A stretch of DNA of 36,373 nucleotides from an uncultured Alphaproteobacteria bacterium (lineage in GTDB: Bacteria > Pseudomonadota > Alphaproteobacteria > HIMB59 > GCA-002718135): assembly GCA_902580765.1 (NCBI GenBank), contig CACHLW010000010.1, positions 1 through 36,373 of the forward strand. Direction: 5' to 3'. The first letter of the stretch is position 1; each line of letters opens with the position of its first letter. The notes below the pieces were generated by a model, which did no database searches, was not told the origin of the DNA, and saw nothing but the letters and a program-made list of their open reading frames with translations. Below are positions 9,675 to 16,819 of this stretch, one piece after another. The translations under genes were made by a program, and so were the position numbers.

Positions 9675-10826
9675 ATGAATGAAACTTTTGATATTTTAGT
9701 AATTGGTGGAGGTATTAATGGTGCTGGAATTGTTAGAGATGCATCAGGCAGAAATTTAAAAGTTTGTTTAGTTGAAAAAAACACAGTTGGCTCCGCCACT
9801 TCATCTTGGTCTACAAAATTAATACATGGCGGATTAAGGTATCTTGAAAATTATGAATTTCGCCTTGTACGTGAATCTCTTAAGGAAAGAGAGGTAATTA
9901 AAAAAATTGCCAGTAATATAACAACACCAATACCTTTTATTATACCTTATCAAAAATCTTTAAGACCTAAATGGTTAATTAAATTAGGATTATTTTTATA
10001 CGATAATCTTGGTGGTAAAATGACTATACCAAAATCTTCAACTATAAATATTATAAAGGAAATGCCTAATATTTTAAAAGATCAATTTAAAATTGGTTTC
10101 CAATATTATGATTTACAAGTTGATGATAAAAAACTTGTTCAGTTAAATGTTGAAGATGCAAAGAAAAAAGGTGCTACGATTATTCAAAATAAAAAAGTAA
10201 TAGATGCAAAACGAAATAAAAATTTTTGGGATATAACTTTAGATGATAATACTATACTTAAATCTAAAATCCTTATAAATGCTGCCGGACCTTGGATAAA
10301 TAAAGTTTTAAGTAATGTTATTAAGTTAAATTCAAATAAATCAATTCGACTTGTAAAAGGTAGTCACATAATAACTAAGAGTCTTTACAGTCAGAAAAAA
10401 GCTTTCACTTTACAAAATGAAGATAACAGAATAATTTTTGTAATACCTTATAAAGATGAATATTCTCTTATTGGCACTACCGAAACAGAAGTTTTCTCAC
10501 CAGAAAATCCAAAAATTGATGAAAGTGAAATTGATTATTTATTAAATTCAGTAAATAAATATTTCATTAAACAAATATCGAGAGTTGATGTGGTAAGTTC
10601 TTATTCTGGAATTAGACCACTTATTGAAGATTTCAAAGAAGCTTCAAAAGTTACGAGAGATTATATATTTGACTTAAATGAGGACGACTCTCAAGCCCCA
10701 CTTCTAAATATTTATGGAGGAAAGCTCACGACATATAGAAAATTAGCTGAAAATGTTCTTTTAACTCTTAATAAACATATTCCAATAAATAAGGAAAGTT
10801 CTTGGACTGCTAAACAAAAACTATAA
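9675..10826 (+). CDS. glpD: FAD-dependent glycerol-3-phosphate dehydrogenase, lacking the C-terminal domain
   Basis: Oxidises glycerol 3-phosphate to dihydroxyacetone phosphate, passing electrons to quinone at the inner membrane. The FAD motif VIGGGINGAG is at 9-18, followed by the GlpD signature SSWSTKLIHGGLRYLE (about 43-58), GTTETE near 267 and YGGKLTTYRK at 347-356. The protein stops at residue 383, at WTAKQKL, exactly where other GlpD proteins (about 500 aa) continue with a PGG turn into the helical C-terminal DAO domain. I found no continuation in the other frames downstream. The FAD and substrate domain is complete, so it may still be active, or be a degrading gene. Co-transcribed with the HAD phosphatase upstream. 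Confidence 0.85.
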   Translation: MNETFDILVIGGGINGAGIVRDASGRNLKVCLVEKNTVGSATSSWSTKLIHGGLRYLENYEFRLVRESLKEREVIKKIASNITTPIPFIIPYQKSLRPKWLIKLGLFLYDNLGGKMTIPKSSTINIIKEMPNILKDQFKIGFQYYDLQVDDKKLVQLNVEDAKKKGATIIQNKKVIDAKRNKNFWDITLDDNTILKSKILINAAGPWINKVLSNVIKLNSNKSIRLVKGSHIITKSLYSQKKAFTLQNEDNRIIFVIPYKDEYSLIGTTETEVFSPENPKIDESEIDYLLNSVNKYFIKQISRVDVVSSYSGIRPLIEDFKEASKVTRDYIFDLNEDDSQAPLLNIYGGKLTTYRKLAENVLLTLNKHIPINKESSWTAKQKL

Positions 10827-10829
10827 TTG

Positions 10830-10942
10830 GTATCCCTCTTAAATAACTTTTCAAATCTGGCGGGCAGAAAAGTTTTATAAGAGGAATACTTCTTATAGGA
10901 GGAAATAATATGAACCCTCTGCCCATTATCATTTTAGTTTAA
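10830..10942 (+). ncRNA. Possible structured RNA element (long hairpin with competing hairpin before a strong RBS)
   Basis: Arms 10830-10852 and 10867-10889 pair at 20 of 23 positions around a 14-nt loop rich in G. Part of the 3' arm (TATAAGA, 10876-10882) can instead pair with TCTTATA at 10891-10897, directly beside an AGGAGG ribosome-binding site (10897-10902). The loop segment GGGCAG (10862-10867) is also complementary to CTGCCC (10919-10924), which would make a pseudoknot. Such alternative folds resemble a cis-regulatory RNA, but I do not recognise a known class and the downstream ORF is only 10 codons. It could instead be a bulky terminator of glpD. Confidence 0.35.
10910..10942 (+). CDS. 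Possible 10-codon leader peptide or gene remnant
   Basis: An ATG 7 bases after a perfect AGGAGG site opens MNPLPIIILV and stops. The ribosome-binding site is among the strongest in the window, yet nothing follows in frame. It may be a leader peptide, the preserved 5' end of a deleted gene, or chance. Confidence 0.2.
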   Translation: MNPLPIIILV

Positions 10943-10981
10943 ATTTTTGATATTTATTGAAAATTTTCAAAAAAGGGATGT

Positions 10982-11005
10982 ATTGCCCCTTATATTAGGG
11001 GCAAT
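10982..11005 (-). terminator. Intrinsic terminator of the aglEFGK operon
   Basis: A perfect 8-bp inverted repeat ATTGCCCC / GGGGCAAT with an 8-nt loop lies 17 bases past the ATPase stop. On the minus strand it is followed by ACATCCC and then a run of six T. The slightly delayed T-run lowers certainty. Confidence 0.65.
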
Positions 11006-11021
11006 AATCAAGACGATTCTA

Positions 11022-12101
11022 TTATTTAAATGCTTGTCCTGAACTGTCAAATAACTGGCATCTTCCAGCAGGAAAACCAACTTTTACAGTATCACCAACT
11101 TTAATTTCTGAATGTCCTTCAGTTTCAGCAACTAATGGCTCTCCATCTTTTTCAAGGTATAGGTAAGTAACGTCACCAAGTTTTTCGACAACAAATACTT
11201 TACTTTCCCAAGATCCATCTGAATCACCGTTTACTACTAAGTGTTCAGGTCTAATACCTAGAGTTACTGAATCACCTTCTGAGGAGGATGCTGACATTTT
11301 TGAAACTGATATTTTTGACATTCCCATAATATCAACTTCTGTAGCATCAGAACTTTTGCTTAATATCTTACTAGAAATAAAGTTCATTTTTGGTGATCCA
11401 ATAAATCCACCTACGAACATATTATTTGGTCTATCATAAAGTTCTAGAGGAGATCCTTTTTGTGAAACGATACCTGTATCAAGAACAACAATATCATCAG
11501 CAAGTGTCATTGCTTCTGTCTGATCGTGAGTAACGTAGATCATAGTAGCTTCTAATTCATTATGAAGTTTAGCTAATTCAACTCTCATTTGAACCCTTAA
11601 TGCAGCATCAAGGTTTGAAAGTGGTTCATCAAATAAGAAAACTTTTGGTTTTCTTGTAATTGCTCTTCCAATAGCAACACGTTGTCTTTGACCACCTGAA
11701 AGTTGTTTTGGCTTTCTTTGAAGATAATCTTCTATTTGAAGAATTCTTGCTGCCTCATTAACTCTTTCATTAATTTCATCTTTTGATCTTTTTTCTAATT
11801 TCAAACCAAAAGCCATGTTATCAAATACAGTCATGTGAGGGTATAAAGCATATGATTGAAACACCATTGCAATATTTCTTTGTTTTGGTGGTAAATCATT
11901 AACTACTTGACCATCAATTGAAATTGTACCTGAATTTATATCTTCAAGTCCTGCGATCATTCTTAACATAGTTGATTTTCCACAACCACTAGGTCCAACT
12001 AGAACTGTGAACGATTGACTTTTGATATCTAGAGATACGTCTTTAATTACGTGGACGTCTCCAAAATATTTATTAACAGTATTTATATTTATATCTGCCA
12101 C
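11022..12101 (-). CDS. aglK: ABC transporter ATP-binding protein, MalK/UgpC/AglK type
   Basis: The cytosolic ATPase that drives the alpha-glucoside transporter. From the chosen start it is 359 aa: Walker A GPSGCGKST (36-44), Q-loop Q82, ABC signature LSGGQ (134-138), Walker B VFLFDEP (154-160), H-loop H192, then a C-terminal TOBE-type beta domain (about 236-359) typical of CUT1 ATPases. The frame is open upstream for 30 more codons from an ATG at 12191, but a GTG at 12101 preceded by AAGGAGGA gives the normal MalK N-terminus, so I start there. Last gene of aglEFGK, about 100 bp after aglG. As the only CUT1 ATPase in the window it may also power the two other CUT1 systems. Confidence 0.9.
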   Translation of the reverse strand: MADININTVNKYFGDVHVIKDVSLDIKSQSFTVLVGPSGCGKSTMLRMIAGLEDINSGTISIDGQVVNDLPPKQRNIAMVFQSYALYPHMTVFDNMAFGLKLEKRSKDEINERVNEAARILQIEDYLQRKPKQLSGGQRQRVAIGRAITRKPKVFLFDEPLSNLDAALRVQMRVELAKLHNELEATMIYVTHDQTEAMTLADDIVVLDTGIVSQKGSPLELYDRPNNMFVGGFIGSPKMNFISSKILSKSSDATEVDIMGMSKISVSKMSASSSEGDSVTLGIRPEHLVVNGDSDGSWESKVFVVEKLGDVTYLYLEKDGEPLVAETEGHSEIKVGDTVKVGFPAGRCQLFDSSGQAFK

Positions 12102-12203
12102 TTCATCCTCCTTTGAGCGATCTTTCAAGTGTATGAATACATCATCATACAAATATGAATTTATTAAACGATAATTTAAAAGAAAAATCAATAGTTTTTA
12201 AAA

Positions 12204-13343
12204 CTATCCCTTAACTGATCCTGCTACTAATCCTCTTATAAAATATCTCTGTAGGGCAAAAAAGATAAATAAAGGTACTGTCATTGAAACAAACGCTCCA
12301 GTTGTCAGTATTTCCCAATTTTCTCCCCTTGATCCAAGTAATTCTTTTAGTTTAGCAGTTAAAATTATTTCACTTGGAACCTGGTCTAAGAACACTAGAC
12401 CTACCAATAAATCATTCCAGCACCATAAAAATTGCAATATAAATATTGAAGCAAATGCAGGTATTGATAAAGGAATAATTATACGTAAAAAAATATCATA
12501 ATGAGAAGCGCCATCAACTTTAGCAGCTTCCATCATTTCATTAGGCAAGCTTTTTAAGAAATTTCTCAATAAGAAAGTAGTCGAAGCTAATCCAAAACCA
12601 GTATGCGCCATCCATACTCCAGGATATGATTTTGCTGCTACGCCAAATAATGCACCAAAATCATTATAGATCGTTAGTATTGGTATTAAAGACATTTGAA
12701 GAGGAACAACAAGAGACGCAATTATTATCGCTAAAAGAGTGTCTCTTCCATAAAATCTCATCCAAGTTAAGGAATATGCAAAAAAGGAACATATTATTAA
12801 TGGTATCAACGTTGAAGGTAGAGCAACAGCCATTGTGTTAACAAATGCTCTTCCAATCCCTTCTTTGAATAAAACTTCTCTATAATTTTCAAAAGTAAAT
12901 GAAGGTGGGCTCAATGATGTAGTAAATAATCGTTTCCCTTTTTTCTTTTGAAATTCACTTTTTGATCTCCATTCATAATTTCCATTCTCATCTAGTATGA
13001 CTTCACTCTCATCTTTAAAAATAGCAATATCACCAATCTTGAATTCATTTATTTTTTTAGAATTTATACCAAAGCTTTCAATTTTTTTTCCTGAATTGTC
13101 TTCAAATAATGTTCCTTTAATTTTAAAATAACCATCTTCCTCAATTTGAGATTCCATTCCCGACATTCTGTATATTTCATTTATTTCAGTTGTAGTTAAA
13201 GCTGTCCACCAACCACTTATAGCTAGCAAATCTTTATCTCTTAAAGAACTTATAAAGAGTCCAAAAGTGGGAATGATCCATACAATCACAAAAAACAATA
13301 ACAATAATTGTGATAAGATTGACGATAATGAAATTTTCTTCAT
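12204..13343 (-). CDS. aglG: Alpha-glucoside ABC transporter permease, AglG-like
   Basis: A 379-aa inner-membrane channel subunit of the MalG class. TM1 spans about 11-33, then a soluble periplasmic insertion (about 38-145) precedes the remaining five helices. The EAA loop, which docks the ATPase, is EAAKVDGASHYDIF (272-285). The protein ends in the usual RYFIRGLVAGSVKG. The long first periplasmic loop and the length near 380 are hallmarks of rhizobial AglG, so the operon is named by gene order and these features. Its stop and the start of aglK are separated by about 100 bp on the transcript, and its ATG overlaps the stop base of aglF. Confidence 0.87.
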   Translation of the reverse strand: MKKISLSSILSQLLLLFFVIVWIIPTFGLFISSLRDKDLLAISGWWTALTTTEINEIYRMSGMESQIEEDGYFKIKGTLFEDNSGKKIESFGINSKKINEFKIGDIAIFKDESEVILDENGNYEWRSKSEFQKKKGKRLFTTSLSPPSFTFENYREVLFKEGIGRAFVNTMAVALPSTLIPLIICSFFAYSLTWMRFYGRDTLLAIIIASLVVPLQMSLIPILTIYNDFGALFGVAAKSYPGVWMAHTGFGLASTTFLLRNFLKSLPNEMMEAAKVDGASHYDIFLRIIIPLSIPAFASIFILQFLWCWNDLLVGLVFLDQVPSEIILTAKLKELLGSRGENWEILTTGAFVSMTVPLFIFFALQRYFIRGLVAGSVKG

Positions 13344-14326
13344 TATATTTTTTGCTCCTGTCTATGTTTGTATAAATTCCATGCTAGGATTGGTATTACT
13401 CCAATCATAATGACAATAGCTAAAACACTACCTCTTCCAGAATCTCCACCTCCTCTAAACATCCAATCGTACATTAAATTAGCTAATACTCCAGTTTGCC
13501 ATTCACCATTGGTCATAGCAAAAATAATATCAAAAATTCTGAGAACAATAATTGTAATTAGAGTCCAAATAACAAGAATTGTTTGTTCTAAATAAGGTAT
13601 AATAATTGAAAAAAATATTTTTAATTCACTTGCTCCATCAATTCTTGCAGCTTCCAGCATTTCTTTAGGTATGCTTCTTAAAGCAGCACTAAAAATTACA
13701 AGAGCTAGTCCAGTCTGTATCCAAATCATTATCGCCATTAAAAAAAAATTATTCCATATTGGAATTGTTAACCATGCCTGAGGTTCATAACCAAGTGAAA
13801 CTATTATTGCATTAAGTAAACCAATTTGCGTATTATCTGGTCCTCGATACTCATAAATAAATTTCCAGATTACTCCTGCCCCAACAAATGAAATTGCCAT
13901 AGGCATAAATATTATTGATTTTGCAATTGAGCCCCACCAAATTCTATCTGCTAGGTTTGCTATAACTAAACCAAAAAAAGTACTTAATGTTGGAACAACA
14001 AGCAACCAAACAAGATTATTTAAAATACTTCTTCTAAATTCAGGATCATTTACTGCCCATTTATAATTATATAGCCCAACAAATTCTCTTCCAAATTTAT
14101 CATAGAAACTTAGTCTAATAGTTTCAAAAACTGGATATAAAATAAAAATAAATAAAACAATAAATGCTGGAGCTATAAAAACGATTACTCTTATGGAGTT
14201 TTCAAAATTATATCTTTTTACACTGCTCCCTCCATAACTATCCAAAAGATAATTTGAGATATGAAAATAAGCGATAAAAAATAATATTCCTAAAAAAACG
14301 ATGAATAATAAATTCAGGATAGTCAT
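13343..14326 (-). CDS. aglF: Alpha-glucoside ABC transporter permease, AglF-like
   Basis: A 327-aa inner-membrane permease of the MalF class, partner of AglG. It has an extra N-terminal helix (about 4-24) before the conserved core beginning near residue 47. The EAA loop is EAARIDGASELKIFFSIIIP (about 226-245). Length agrees with AglF proteins (about 330-335 aa). It follows aglE after a strong hairpin with a T-run, so its expression depends on read-through of that attenuator. No good Shine-Dalgarno site is present at the ATG. Ligand specificity is set by AglE, so the assignment to alpha-glucosides is by family resemblance. Confidence 0.85.
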   Translation of the reverse strand: MTILNLLFIVFLGILFFIAYFHISNYLLDSYGGSSVKRYNFENSIRVIVFIAPAFIVLFIFILYPVFETIRLSFYDKFGREFVGLYNYKWAVNDPEFRRSILNNLVWLLVVPTLSTFFGLVIANLADRIWWGSIAKSIIFMPMAISFVGAGVIWKFIYEYRGPDNTQIGLLNAIIVSLGYEPQAWLTIPIWNNFFLMAIMIWIQTGLALVIFSAALRSIPKEMLEAARIDGASELKIFFSIIIPYLEQTILVIWTLITIIVLRIFDIIFAMTNGEWQTGVLANLMYDWMFRGGGDSGRGSVLAIVIMIGVIPILAWNLYKHRQEQKI

Positions 14327-14342
14327 TAATGATTAAATATAT

Positions 14343-14381
14343 AAAAAAAACAGGCGAACAAGTTAATTGTCCGCCTGTTTT
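14343..14381 (-). terminator. Attenuating terminator between aglE and aglF
   Basis: A 15-bp stem (AAAACAGGCGGACAA / TTGTTCGCCTGTTTT with one G-U pair, 5-nt loop) begins 10 bases after the aglE stop; the final stem U residues continue into a run of eight to twelve T on the minus strand. It has all marks of an intrinsic terminator and should let only part of transcription reach aglF. Confidence 0.85.
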
Positions 14382-14391
14382 AAGGAGGTAG

Positions 14392-15702
14392 TTATTTAAT
14401 TGCGTCCCAACTGTCTTGGATTGCATCAGCAACATCTTTTGCTGATTTTCCGTTGGTATAATCAACCATACCAGTCCAGAAAGTTCCAGCTCCAATAGCA
14501 CCTGGCATTAAATCAGAAGCATCAAATCTAAAAGTTGTTGCCCCAGTTAATATTTCTCCAAGTTTTCTAAAAGTATCACTAGCATATTTACTGCCATCAA
14601 CACCTTTGTGAGGAGTTAAGAAACCTCCCTTAGCCATCCAATATTCGTGTGGCTCAGGATGCATTAAGAATTTCATGAATTCTATAGTTGCAGCATTGTC
14701 ATTTGTAGCTGCCACCAATGTTCCTGCTCCTAAAACTGGAGTACCTAAATCTTTTCCAGCAAACGCAGGAAAGTAGAAAAAGTCATAATCTACACCAGCT
14801 TCAACACCTTCAGGAAAGAATGCAGGAATAAAACTTGCCTGACGATGCATCATACACTCAGCAGGAGAAGTAAATAAACCATTTGGAGCATCTCTGAAAT
14901 CAGTTGTAGCAACTGCTTTTGATCCACCATTAACATAACTATCGTTTAGAGCTATTGAACCAAAGAAATCCATTGCTTCAAGAACTCTTGGGTCATTGAA
15001 AGGCATTTCGTTTGACACCCACATGTCATAAACATCTGGAGAATGAGTTCTAAGCATTATGTCTTCCATCCAGTCAGTTGCAGGCCAACCTGTAGCTGCT
15101 CCAGACCCTAGACCAATACACCAAGGAGTATTTCCATCTGATGCCATCTGCTCAGTTAATGCCATAAGCTCTTCCATAGATGAAGGTACTTCATAACCAT
15201 TATCTTCAAAGTTATCTGGTGAATACCAAACTAAACTTTTTACATTAGTTCTAAAGAAGATTGCATTAAATTGCTCGTTACCATTTTCATCATCGTAAGT
15301 TGATAGATCAATCCATGATTGACCAGCAGCATAGTTATCTAAAACCATTTGCTTAATATCATCTCCGAGAGGAACTAATCCTCCCATAGCTGCAGCATTA
15401 GCAGCAAGACCTGGTTGTGGAAATACAACTAAGTCAGCAGCACTTCCTGCTTTTAAATCAATCATTACTTGTTGTTCAAAACTATCTGAACCACCATATT
15501 CAAAAGTAGCACCTGTGGCTTTTTCAAATATAGCACCAACTTCTCTCATTATTTCTTGCTCTGGTGATAACCAAGGACCAAACATTACTACTTTTTGTCC
15601 ACTAAGATCTGGACCAGTATATTTGTGACCTCCAGCATAAGCTGAAAAACTAAAAATCAAAGATGAGAAAATGATTAATAAAATTTTATATAATTTTTTC
15701 AT
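14392..15702 (-). CDS. aglE: Alpha-glucoside-binding periplasmic protein, AglE-like
   Basis: A 436-aa binding protein with a signal peptide (MKKLYK, hydrophobic 6-21, cleavage near AYA-GG at 22-24). The start of the mature protein, DLSGQKVVMFGPWLSPEQE, and the segment DLVVFPQPGLAANAAAMGGLVPL follow the AglE pattern known from rhizobia, where the system takes up sucrose, maltose, trehalose and other alpha-glucosides. GGAGG lies 6 bases before the ATG. It is the first gene of a four-gene operon under a LacI-type operator and is followed by an attenuator. Base use is less AT-rich than nearby regulators, as expected for a highly expressed protein. The natural substrate (for example glucosylglycerol) cannot be decided. 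Confidence 0.87.
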   Translation of the reverse strand: MKKLYKILLIIFSSLIFSFSAYAGGHKYTGPDLSGQKVVMFGPWLSPEQEIMREVGAIFEKATGATFEYGGSDSFEQQVMIDLKAGSAADLVVFPQPGLAANAAAMGGLVPLGDDIKQMVLDNYAAGQSWIDLSTYDDENGNEQFNAIFFRTNVKSLVWYSPDNFEDNGYEVPSSMEELMALTEQMASDGNTPWCIGLGSGAATGWPATDWMEDIMLRTHSPDVYDMWVSNEMPFNDPRVLEAMDFFGSIALNDSYVNGGSKAVATTDFRDAPNGLFTSPAECMMHRQASFIPAFFPEGVEAGVDYDFFYFPAFAGKDLGTPVLGAGTLVAATNDNAATIEFMKFLMHPEPHEYWMAKGGFLTPHKGVDGSKYASDTFRKLGEILTGATTFRFDASDLMPGAIGAGTFWTGMVDYTNGKSAKDVADAIQDSWDAIK

Positions 15703-15741: not shown

Positions 15742-15770
15742 ATAATTTACCAAAACGTTTTGGTTGTCAA
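15742..15770 (-). promoter_or_regulatory. Promoter of aglEFGK
   Basis: On the minus strand a perfect TTGACA (15770-15765) and AATTAT (15747-15742) are 17 bases apart. Transcription would start about 33 bases before aglE. The spacer is almost exactly filled by the palindromic operator. Confidence 0.6.
15749..15764. promoter_or_regulatory. LacI-family operator
   Basis: A perfect 16-bp palindrome ACCAAAACGTTTTGGT with a central CG step, the typical form of LacI/GalR operators. It lies between aglE and the divergent lacI-type gene, inside the -35/-10 spacer of the agl promoter and just before the regulator's own start region, so repression of agl and autoregulation are both likely. Confidence 0.82.
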
Positions 15771-15799
15771 TTCATTATTTCTCAGTTATTCATAATTTT

Positions 15800-16819
15800 A
15801 TGAATATTAAAGGATTGGCAAAAAAATTAAATCTATCAATCACAACAGTTTCAAGAGCTCTTGGAGGATATTCAGATGTAAGCGAAAAAACTAGAGAAAG
15901 AGTAAAAAAATTTGCCGATAAATATAAATATAGACCTAACCCTTATGCTAGCACTTTAGCATCAGGTAATACAAAAACAGTTGGATATGTTCTTCCAATT
16001 TACGGAGAAAATACAAGTACTCTGAATCAGGGAAATTTTTTTCTTTTTATTTCAGGTATGTCAGAAGAATTACTTTCAGAGAGTATACAACTTCAGATTT
16101 TATTTGCAAAAAGTGAGAGAGAAGAATTAACAGCATATGAAAAACTAATAACTGAACATAAAATTAAGAATATTGTATTACAAAATATAAAGACAAATGA
16201 TAAACGCATAGAGATTCTTAATAACTACAATATAAATTTTGTAGCTTGGGGAAAAACAAAAGAAAAAAGAAACTATTCTTGGGTAGATTTAGATAATGAT
16301 AATGCAATAAAAATAATTATAAATTATTTAATCAAAAAAAATCATAGTCATATTGCTTATATCAATATTTCAGAAAAATATAATTTTGCAAATGAGCGTA
16401 AATCATCTTTTCTCAAAAATTTAAAATTAAATAATATAAAATTTAATCCAAATTACTATGCTTCAGTAAAACTGGAAGAACCTGAAAAAAGTTTTGAAGT
16501 AATAAAAAAAATGCTTAAAAAAAATAAAAATATCTCCGCAATAATTTGTTCGACAGAATTTTCAGCATTAAGTGCAATAAAAGCATGTAATCATTTAAAT
16601 TATAAAATTGGAAAGGATATATCAATTATTACTTTTGACGGTGCTCTAGTTAAAGATTTGAGCTCACCCCCAATAACTGCTGTATCTTTTCCAGTAAAAG
16701 AATTAGGTAAAAGAGCAATAAATATTTTGCTAAATAAAAGTAAAAGTAAAAATGTATCAGATAACTATTTAGCAAATACAGAAATCATTGAAAGAGGCTC
16801 AGTCCATATTGTAAGTTAA
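15800..16819 (+). CDS. LacI-family transcriptional regulator of the agl operon
   Basis: A 339-aa sugar-responsive repressor. The N-terminal helix-turn-helix is textbook: MNIKGLAKKLNLSITTVSRAL, then YRPNPYASTLASGNTKTVGYVLP linking through the hinge to a periplasmic-binding-protein-like effector domain (about 60-335). An in-frame TTG at 15764 would add 12 residues, but LacI proteins begin just before the HTH and the ATG at 15800 fits. No Shine-Dalgarno site precedes it. A TTGTCA and TATTCA pair 17 bp apart would start transcription at about the ATG, suggesting a leaderless message. It is divergent from aglE and flanked by the palindromic operator. The effector is presumably the imported glucoside or a product of it. 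Confidence 0.88.
   Translation: MNIKGLAKKLNLSITTVSRALGGYSDVSEKTRERVKKFADKYKYRPNPYASTLASGNTKTVGYVLPIYGENTSTLNQGNFFLFISGMSEELLSESIQLQILFAKSEREELTAYEKLITEHKIKNIVLQNIKTNDKRIEILNNYNINFVAWGKTKEKRNYSWVDLDNDNAIKIIINYLIKKNHSHIAYINISEKYNFANERKSSFLKNLKLNNIKFNPNYYASVKLEEPEKSFEVIKKMLKKNKNISAIICSTEFSALSAIKACNHLNYKIGKDISIITFDGALVKDLSSPPITAVSFPVKELGKRAINILLNKSKSKNVSDNYLANTEIIERGSVHIVS

Follow-up and report, generated by a model that had tools for sequence, protein, structure and literature searches.

A conserved candidate small RNA with an anti-Shine-Dalgarno seed behind a sugar ABC-transporter operon in HIMB59 Alphaproteobacteria

Described anti-Shine-Dalgarno RNAs and the HIMB59 locus

The closest described systems are two groups of small RNAs (sRNAs) that carry anti-Shine-Dalgarno (anti-SD) motifs. 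In the accessible portions of the papers describing it, NfeR1 (alpha-r14) of Sinorhizobium meliloti is an Hfq-independent, trans-acting sRNA that carries anti-SD motifs and has periplasmic ABC-transporter binding proteins as its validated targets (PMC8844928, PMC10746234), and it forms three hairpins, each with CCUCCUCCC (PMC10746234). AbcR1/AbcR2 (alpha-r15) are described in the accessible text as carrying two anti-SD motifs in single-stranded regions, with ABC binding proteins among their targets; this family binds Hfq and adjoins lsrB (PMC8844928). Conserved RNA motifs are also described for Candidatus Pelagibacter ubique, among the streamlined marine Alphaproteobacteria, and none of those in the available text was found to be an anti-SD sRNA (PMC2704228). 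The open-licence PubMed Central literature, as far as its text was available, yielded no such sRNA for HIMB59 or SAR11.

The window analysed here is a stretch of 36,373 nt from an uncultured alphaproteobacterium of the SAR11-like HIMB59 group (contig CACHLW010000010.1). An earlier note on this DNA had described, just after a glpD that it took for truncated, an orphan plus-strand regulatory RNA with competing hairpins in front of a ribosome-binding site and a 10-codon ORF. The locus comprises the following features.

9675-10826: glpD, 383 amino acids, Pfam DAO domain only
10862-10924, minus strand: conserved sRNA core (covariance-model E 1.5e-17 in its own genome; also 1.3e-14)
10981-11006, minus strand: terminator of the ABC operon, separating the operon from the sRNA gene
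11022-12131, minus strand: ABC transporter ATPase of MalK/UgpC type (Pfam ABC_tran, TOBE_2, OB_MalK)
12204-15702, minus strand: two permeases and a sugar-type substrate-binding protein of the same operon (Pfam BPD_transp_1 twice, SBP_bac_8, SBP_bac_1)
15750-15763: predicted LacI-type operator, palindrome CCAAAACGTTTTGG, 0 mismatches, between the LacI gene and the operon
15764-16819, plus strand: divergent LacI-family regulator (Pfam LacI, Peripla_BP_3)

As far as the available text on NfeR1 allows comparison, the element shows, in sequence, anti-SD complementarity to ABC binding-protein mRNAs and has one closing stem, with UUUCCUCC and AUUCCUC, in place of three hairpins; its neighbours are others, and a probable LacI operator (in other clades) stands against the nitrogen control of NfeR1. 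Two anti-SD motifs are present, the second lying partly in a hairpin (P2) or in the terminator stem; set against the accessible account of AbcR, the neighbours are an ABC ATPase and glpD instead of lsrB and, in contrast to the Hfq-binding AbcR family, no Hfq was found in the order (the window's own genome is 66 % complete). An Hfq profile matched 0 of 162 genomes of the order and 5 of 14 control genomes. The whole order may lack this RNA chaperone. Searching the window against Rfam 15 gave no match at gathering score, whilst of the 26 matches below that score (E up to 10) none was named for the alpha-r or AbcR families. If our reading holds, the sRNA would work like AbcR and NfeR1 and yet be a member of neither, given its different motif, architecture and neighbours.

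Distribution, strand and structure of the element

A DNA search (E 1e-8 or better) found a single copy of the region in each of 44 genomes out of the 61 of the genus (G000-G060), with segment 10864-10925 kept where the flanks diverge. The core was then sought with a covariance model (R1) built from 15 distinct cores, which identified it in 89 of 162 genomes examined across the order: 82 in the window's genus and seven in four other genera of its family. Within the same 162 genomes, R1 had no match in family f2 and none in at least 20 genus genomes, many of them incomplete, which is perhaps the reason. Class-wide, a second model (R2), run under stricter filters that can lose weak matches, matched two of 385 genomes, both in the window's genus, and thus did not find the element outside its own family in the class as sampled. 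Contig CACKRG010000008.1 of the single-cell genome AG-916-I19 carries the element; a search for a phage origin returned 0 matches to the exact core pattern in viral contigs. The parts of the element and its predicted transcript are as follows.

10812-10924, minus strand: full-length transcript as predicted for the window's clade, about 110 nt and ending in an intrinsic terminator (folding at -33.7 kcal/mol, z -3.83)
10862-10874, minus strand: 3' strand of stem P1, AACUUUUCUGCCC, covarying with the 5' strand
10876-10897, minus strand: hairpin P2, UAUAAGA...UCUUAUA, not conserved in all genera
10881-10889, minus strand: second anti-SD-like segment, GUAUUCCUC, kept in locus L106, where P2 is lost
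10898-10912, minus strand: main anti-SD seed, CAUAUUAUUUCCUCC (complement GGAGGAAAUAAUAUG), without variation in the first 15 sequences
10913-10924, minus strand: 5' strand of stem P1, GGGCAGAGGGUU, covarying with 10862-10874
10924, minus strand: candidate 5' end, at the start of the conserved core
10931-10936, minus strand: -10 box TAAAAT, with at least five of six positions matching TATAAT in 46 of 54 sequences at this spacing

Four observations together place the RNA on the minus strand. G.U cells in the core structure number 20 on the minus strand and one on the plus strand (284 pair cells), and in P1 alone, in a wider set, 11 and 0; the terminator stem adds a further 14 on the minus strand, though such cells do not count as independent events. 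Of 54 distinct upstream sequences, 46 have a -10-like box 5-10 nt ahead of the core, compared with 0-24 at other offsets, whilst the stretch separating the two is one of the most variable parts. In the window's clade and in a second group, a hairpin followed by a U-rich run marks the end of the minus strand, the stem of the predicted transcript closing with UUAUAG, then UUUUUGUUU. Lastly, the ATPase gene lies on the same strand, 96-116 nt upstream of the core, in 58 of 58 loci. The element thus most likely works on the minus strand, opposite to the earlier reading, and from these sequence features we infer that it is transcribed; that it is a real, conserved sRNA gene is very probable.

The folds described in the earlier note survive re-examination. 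Its pairing of GGGCAG (10862-10867) with CTGCCC (10919-10924) belongs to P1, the closing stem, and the covariance-model comparison of related genomes that it had proposed as a check gave a conserved core in which this long-range pair covaries (GGGCAG/CUGCCC, GAGCAG/CUGCUC). In 22 distinct sequences 95.8 % of P1 cells are paired, compared with 46-64 % when the partner is slid, and four pairs are changed on both sides. The long hairpin corresponds to the terminator form in the window's clade. Segment 10820-10905 folds at -26.4 kcal/mol (z -4.14), a value that none of 200 shuffles reached, and the wider segment 10820-10945 gives z -2.84, with one of 200 shuffles equalling or bettering it. Pairs of the terminator stem are kept in 95.9 % of cells; the changes seen are all one-sided, with no two-sided one found in this count, which left out the inner part, where the alignment is shifted and where a change from CUUUUC/GAAAAG to CUUCUC/GAGAAG is visible by eye. 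By inspection, the second arm of the hairpin is absent in L044, L045, L033 and L034. The alternative pairing of TATAAGA (10876-10882) with TCTTATA (10891-10897) is likewise real, and the resulting P2 is present in most sequences. Because P1 and the long hairpin share sequence, the two folds would be mutually exclusive in clades having both. The idea of a structured regulatory RNA with competing folds is supported; the suggestion that it could be a small RNA also gains support.

The seed CAUAUUAUUUCCUCC is nearly invariant in the wider alignment. Its mean unpaired probability is 0.9 in the window core and 0.61 in the longer form, and the finding that it is only 55-61 % unpaired in the longer form (L035, L002) counts against the reading that we prefer.

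Candidate targets and alternative explanations

The 17-base complement, allowing at most two mismatches, was sought in 37 genomes of the genus and 24 of f2, 61 in all. Twenty near-complementary places outside the element were picked by hand from the resulting list; judged by sequence, ABC substrate-binding proteins begin at 17 of them, and the other three fall within ORFs. Eleven of the 17 starts are in genus genomes; the other six belong to f2, a family in which the sRNA was not detected. Four representatives were assigned by Pfam to SBP_bac_5 (L056), OpuAC (L061) and SBP_bac_1 (L071 and L046). The start region of the family-5 protein was recovered in 16 of 28 genomes searched, the window's own genome (G000, 66 % complete) having no match at threshold. 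With the window's seed it pairs at -20.4 to -26.5 kcal/mol in 14 of 15 sRNA-bearing genomes, at -18.9 in the fifteenth (G101) and at -17.2 in G061, which is without the sRNA. Seeds with shuffled flanks paired as low in 13, 22 and 294 of 2000 trials for three family-5 versions, 14 of 2000 for the OpuAC type and 57 of 2000 for L071; for the operon's own binding protein, which pairs at -13.6, they did so in 1213 of 2000. The comparison with shuffled flanks thus lends little support to one of the family-5 versions and none to the binding protein of the operon itself.

The G101 locus (L105) has the seed AUAAUUUCC in place of AUUAUUUCC, and the family-5 start of that genome reads GGAAAUUAU in place of GGAAAUAAU, differences that could represent a compensatory change; its own seed brings no gain in computed energy (-18.6 compared with -18.9). 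Of 50 places in G137 with the pattern AGGAGG-N4-8-ATG, 30 were covered; 12 of these open ORFs of at least 74 amino acids, and about four of the ORFs look like binding proteins. Binding-protein genes often have strong SD sites anyway, which limits the target case. Start regions of this kind also occur in family f2, without the sRNA, and include the best match of all: a perfect one of 24 bases, in a gene with orthologues in only two of the 20 f1 genomes tested. At L046:2001-2024 (f2, also in L047) the start of a sugar binding-protein gene matches the plus strand of the element over 24 bases, the gene lying downstream of an 83 %-identical copy of the window's ATPase and behind an SDR-like gene that points the opposite way; this may hint at the origin of the seed or be due to chance. 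A noisy ranking of 380 ORFs of G137 (at least 100 amino acids, from 400 kb) placed binding proteins, by look, at ranks 2, 12 and 13. The top-ranked pairing in that sample was with dnaA, which was rejected as a target, its pairing ranging from -6.6 to -24.8 kcal/mol among sRNA-bearing genomes and not being conserved.

In the mechanism that we propose, a minus-strand sRNA, ranging from about 65 nt for the core to 110 nt in the window's clade, would be made from its own promoter, just behind the terminator of the sugar ABC-transporter operon. Its 5' end would pair with a downstream segment to give the long closing stem P1, and the loop would expose the anti-SD seed together with GUAUUCCUC. These would pair across the ribosome-binding site and start codon in mRNAs that encode substrate-binding proteins of family-5 peptide, glycine-betaine and sugar types, blocking their translation in trans and without Hfq. 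Taken as a whole, an own-promoter sRNA repressing ABC binding-protein mRNAs without Hfq is a fairly likely reading of the locus; repression of these mRNAs, which we infer from complementarity, is taken singly also reasonably probable.

An unlikely explanation of the target matches is a general brake on translation, in which the anti-SD segment pairs with any strong SD and binding proteins appear for their strong SDs. This would account for the number of binding proteins among AGGAGG starts, also in genomes without the sRNA, but the conserved complementarity takes in the spacer and start codon as well as the SD, flank-shuffled seeds are beaten for several targets, and the operon's own binding protein pairs poorly. 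It is very unlikely that the element is simply the 3' UTR tail of the ABC operon mRNA, cis-acting or processed into an sRNA and with no separate gene. The constant position behind the ATPase on the same strand would fit, but a terminator stands in between and the -10 box keeps a constant spacing to the core; such a tail, too, would act as an anti-SD RNA. The hairpin and U-run of the minus strand are terminator-like and glpD is convergent in 48 of 58 loci (reversed in one, not detected in nine), as for a two-way transcription terminator between convergent genes and nothing more. That explanation is highly improbable, since conservation is higher in the seed than in the stems, the core is still present where both the second arm and a convergent glpD are absent (L044, L045, L105-L111) and the ABC operon has its own terminator.

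The plus-strand cis-regulator or leader peptide of the earlier note is now extremely improbable. The plus strand does fold, and AGGAGG (10897-10902), ATG (10910-10912) and the peptide MNPLPIIILV are all present as claimed, but G.U asymmetry, promoter spacing and terminator put the RNA on the opposite strand, the apparent ribosome-binding site is the mirror image of the minus-strand anti-SD segment, and the plus strand has no following gene. The ORF is not a conserved feature: indels frameshift it or it is absent in relatives, it is reduced to Met-stop in one locus of 58 (L034), and the ribosome-binding-site-to-ATG string GGAGGAAATAATATG is missing in four of the 58. Its peptide falls into 42 classes across the 58 loci, one class being the four loci without that string, and differs in nearly every clade; within the window's clade an ILV ending is partly kept, at the place occupied by the -10 box of the minus strand. 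The plus-strand leader and small-ORF readings were rejected on this test. GGA motifs occur on the plus strand, and CsrA was considered on that ground. The notion of a regulator left behind after a gene deletion does not fit a locus that is intact and syntenic behind the ATPase in all 58 loci. As for the supposedly truncated glpD, relatives match the same 383-residue form end to end; equal length rules it out as a deletion scar, and by this sequence comparison the gene is a short lineage form, not a local truncation.

LacI operators and a possible ranking of nutrients

Allowing two mismatches, 0.22 operator matches are expected by chance in the window. Outside the window's clade, 17 of 30 loci have an operator at the same threshold that ends 42-44 or 15 nt ahead of the sRNA (L034-L042, L044, L108-L110, L113, L114, L116 and L077); the 13 loci without one are L029-L033, L043, L045, L105-L107, L111, L112 and L115. 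Allowing one mismatch, G001, G034, G057, G145 and G146 each have one site at the sRNA and another about 6 kb off on the operon side, the latter being a pair in two of these genomes; four of the five have two sites elsewhere. In other clades the same LacI repressor thus probably controls both sRNA and transporter, judging by operator positions. In the window's clade no operator was found at the sRNA, G000 and G137 having the operon-side site only and G053 none. Locus L033 (G014) has a perfect CCAAAACGTTTTGG palindrome just downstream of the sRNA core, not upstream.

Regulation is generally considered sparse in the small genomes of marine oligotrophs, and binding proteins are usually among the most abundant proteins of such streamlined cells. 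In several other clades, LacI control of sRNA and transporter could let the uptake of one sugar turn down competing binding proteins; an Hfq-free sRNA under LacI control as part of such a ranking of nutrients is a tentative proposal. The locus illustrates that an antisense RNA can pass for a ribosome-binding site and small ORF on the wrong strand, and it offers a testable target set in ocean bacteria. If the proposal is true, anti-SD control of binding proteins would have arisen in a lineage without detectable Hfq, and the switching on of one sugar transporter would lead the RNA behind it to shut off synthesis of rival binding proteins, so that an RNA linked to a single transporter and complementary to several binding-protein starts would provide a compact ranking of nutrients.
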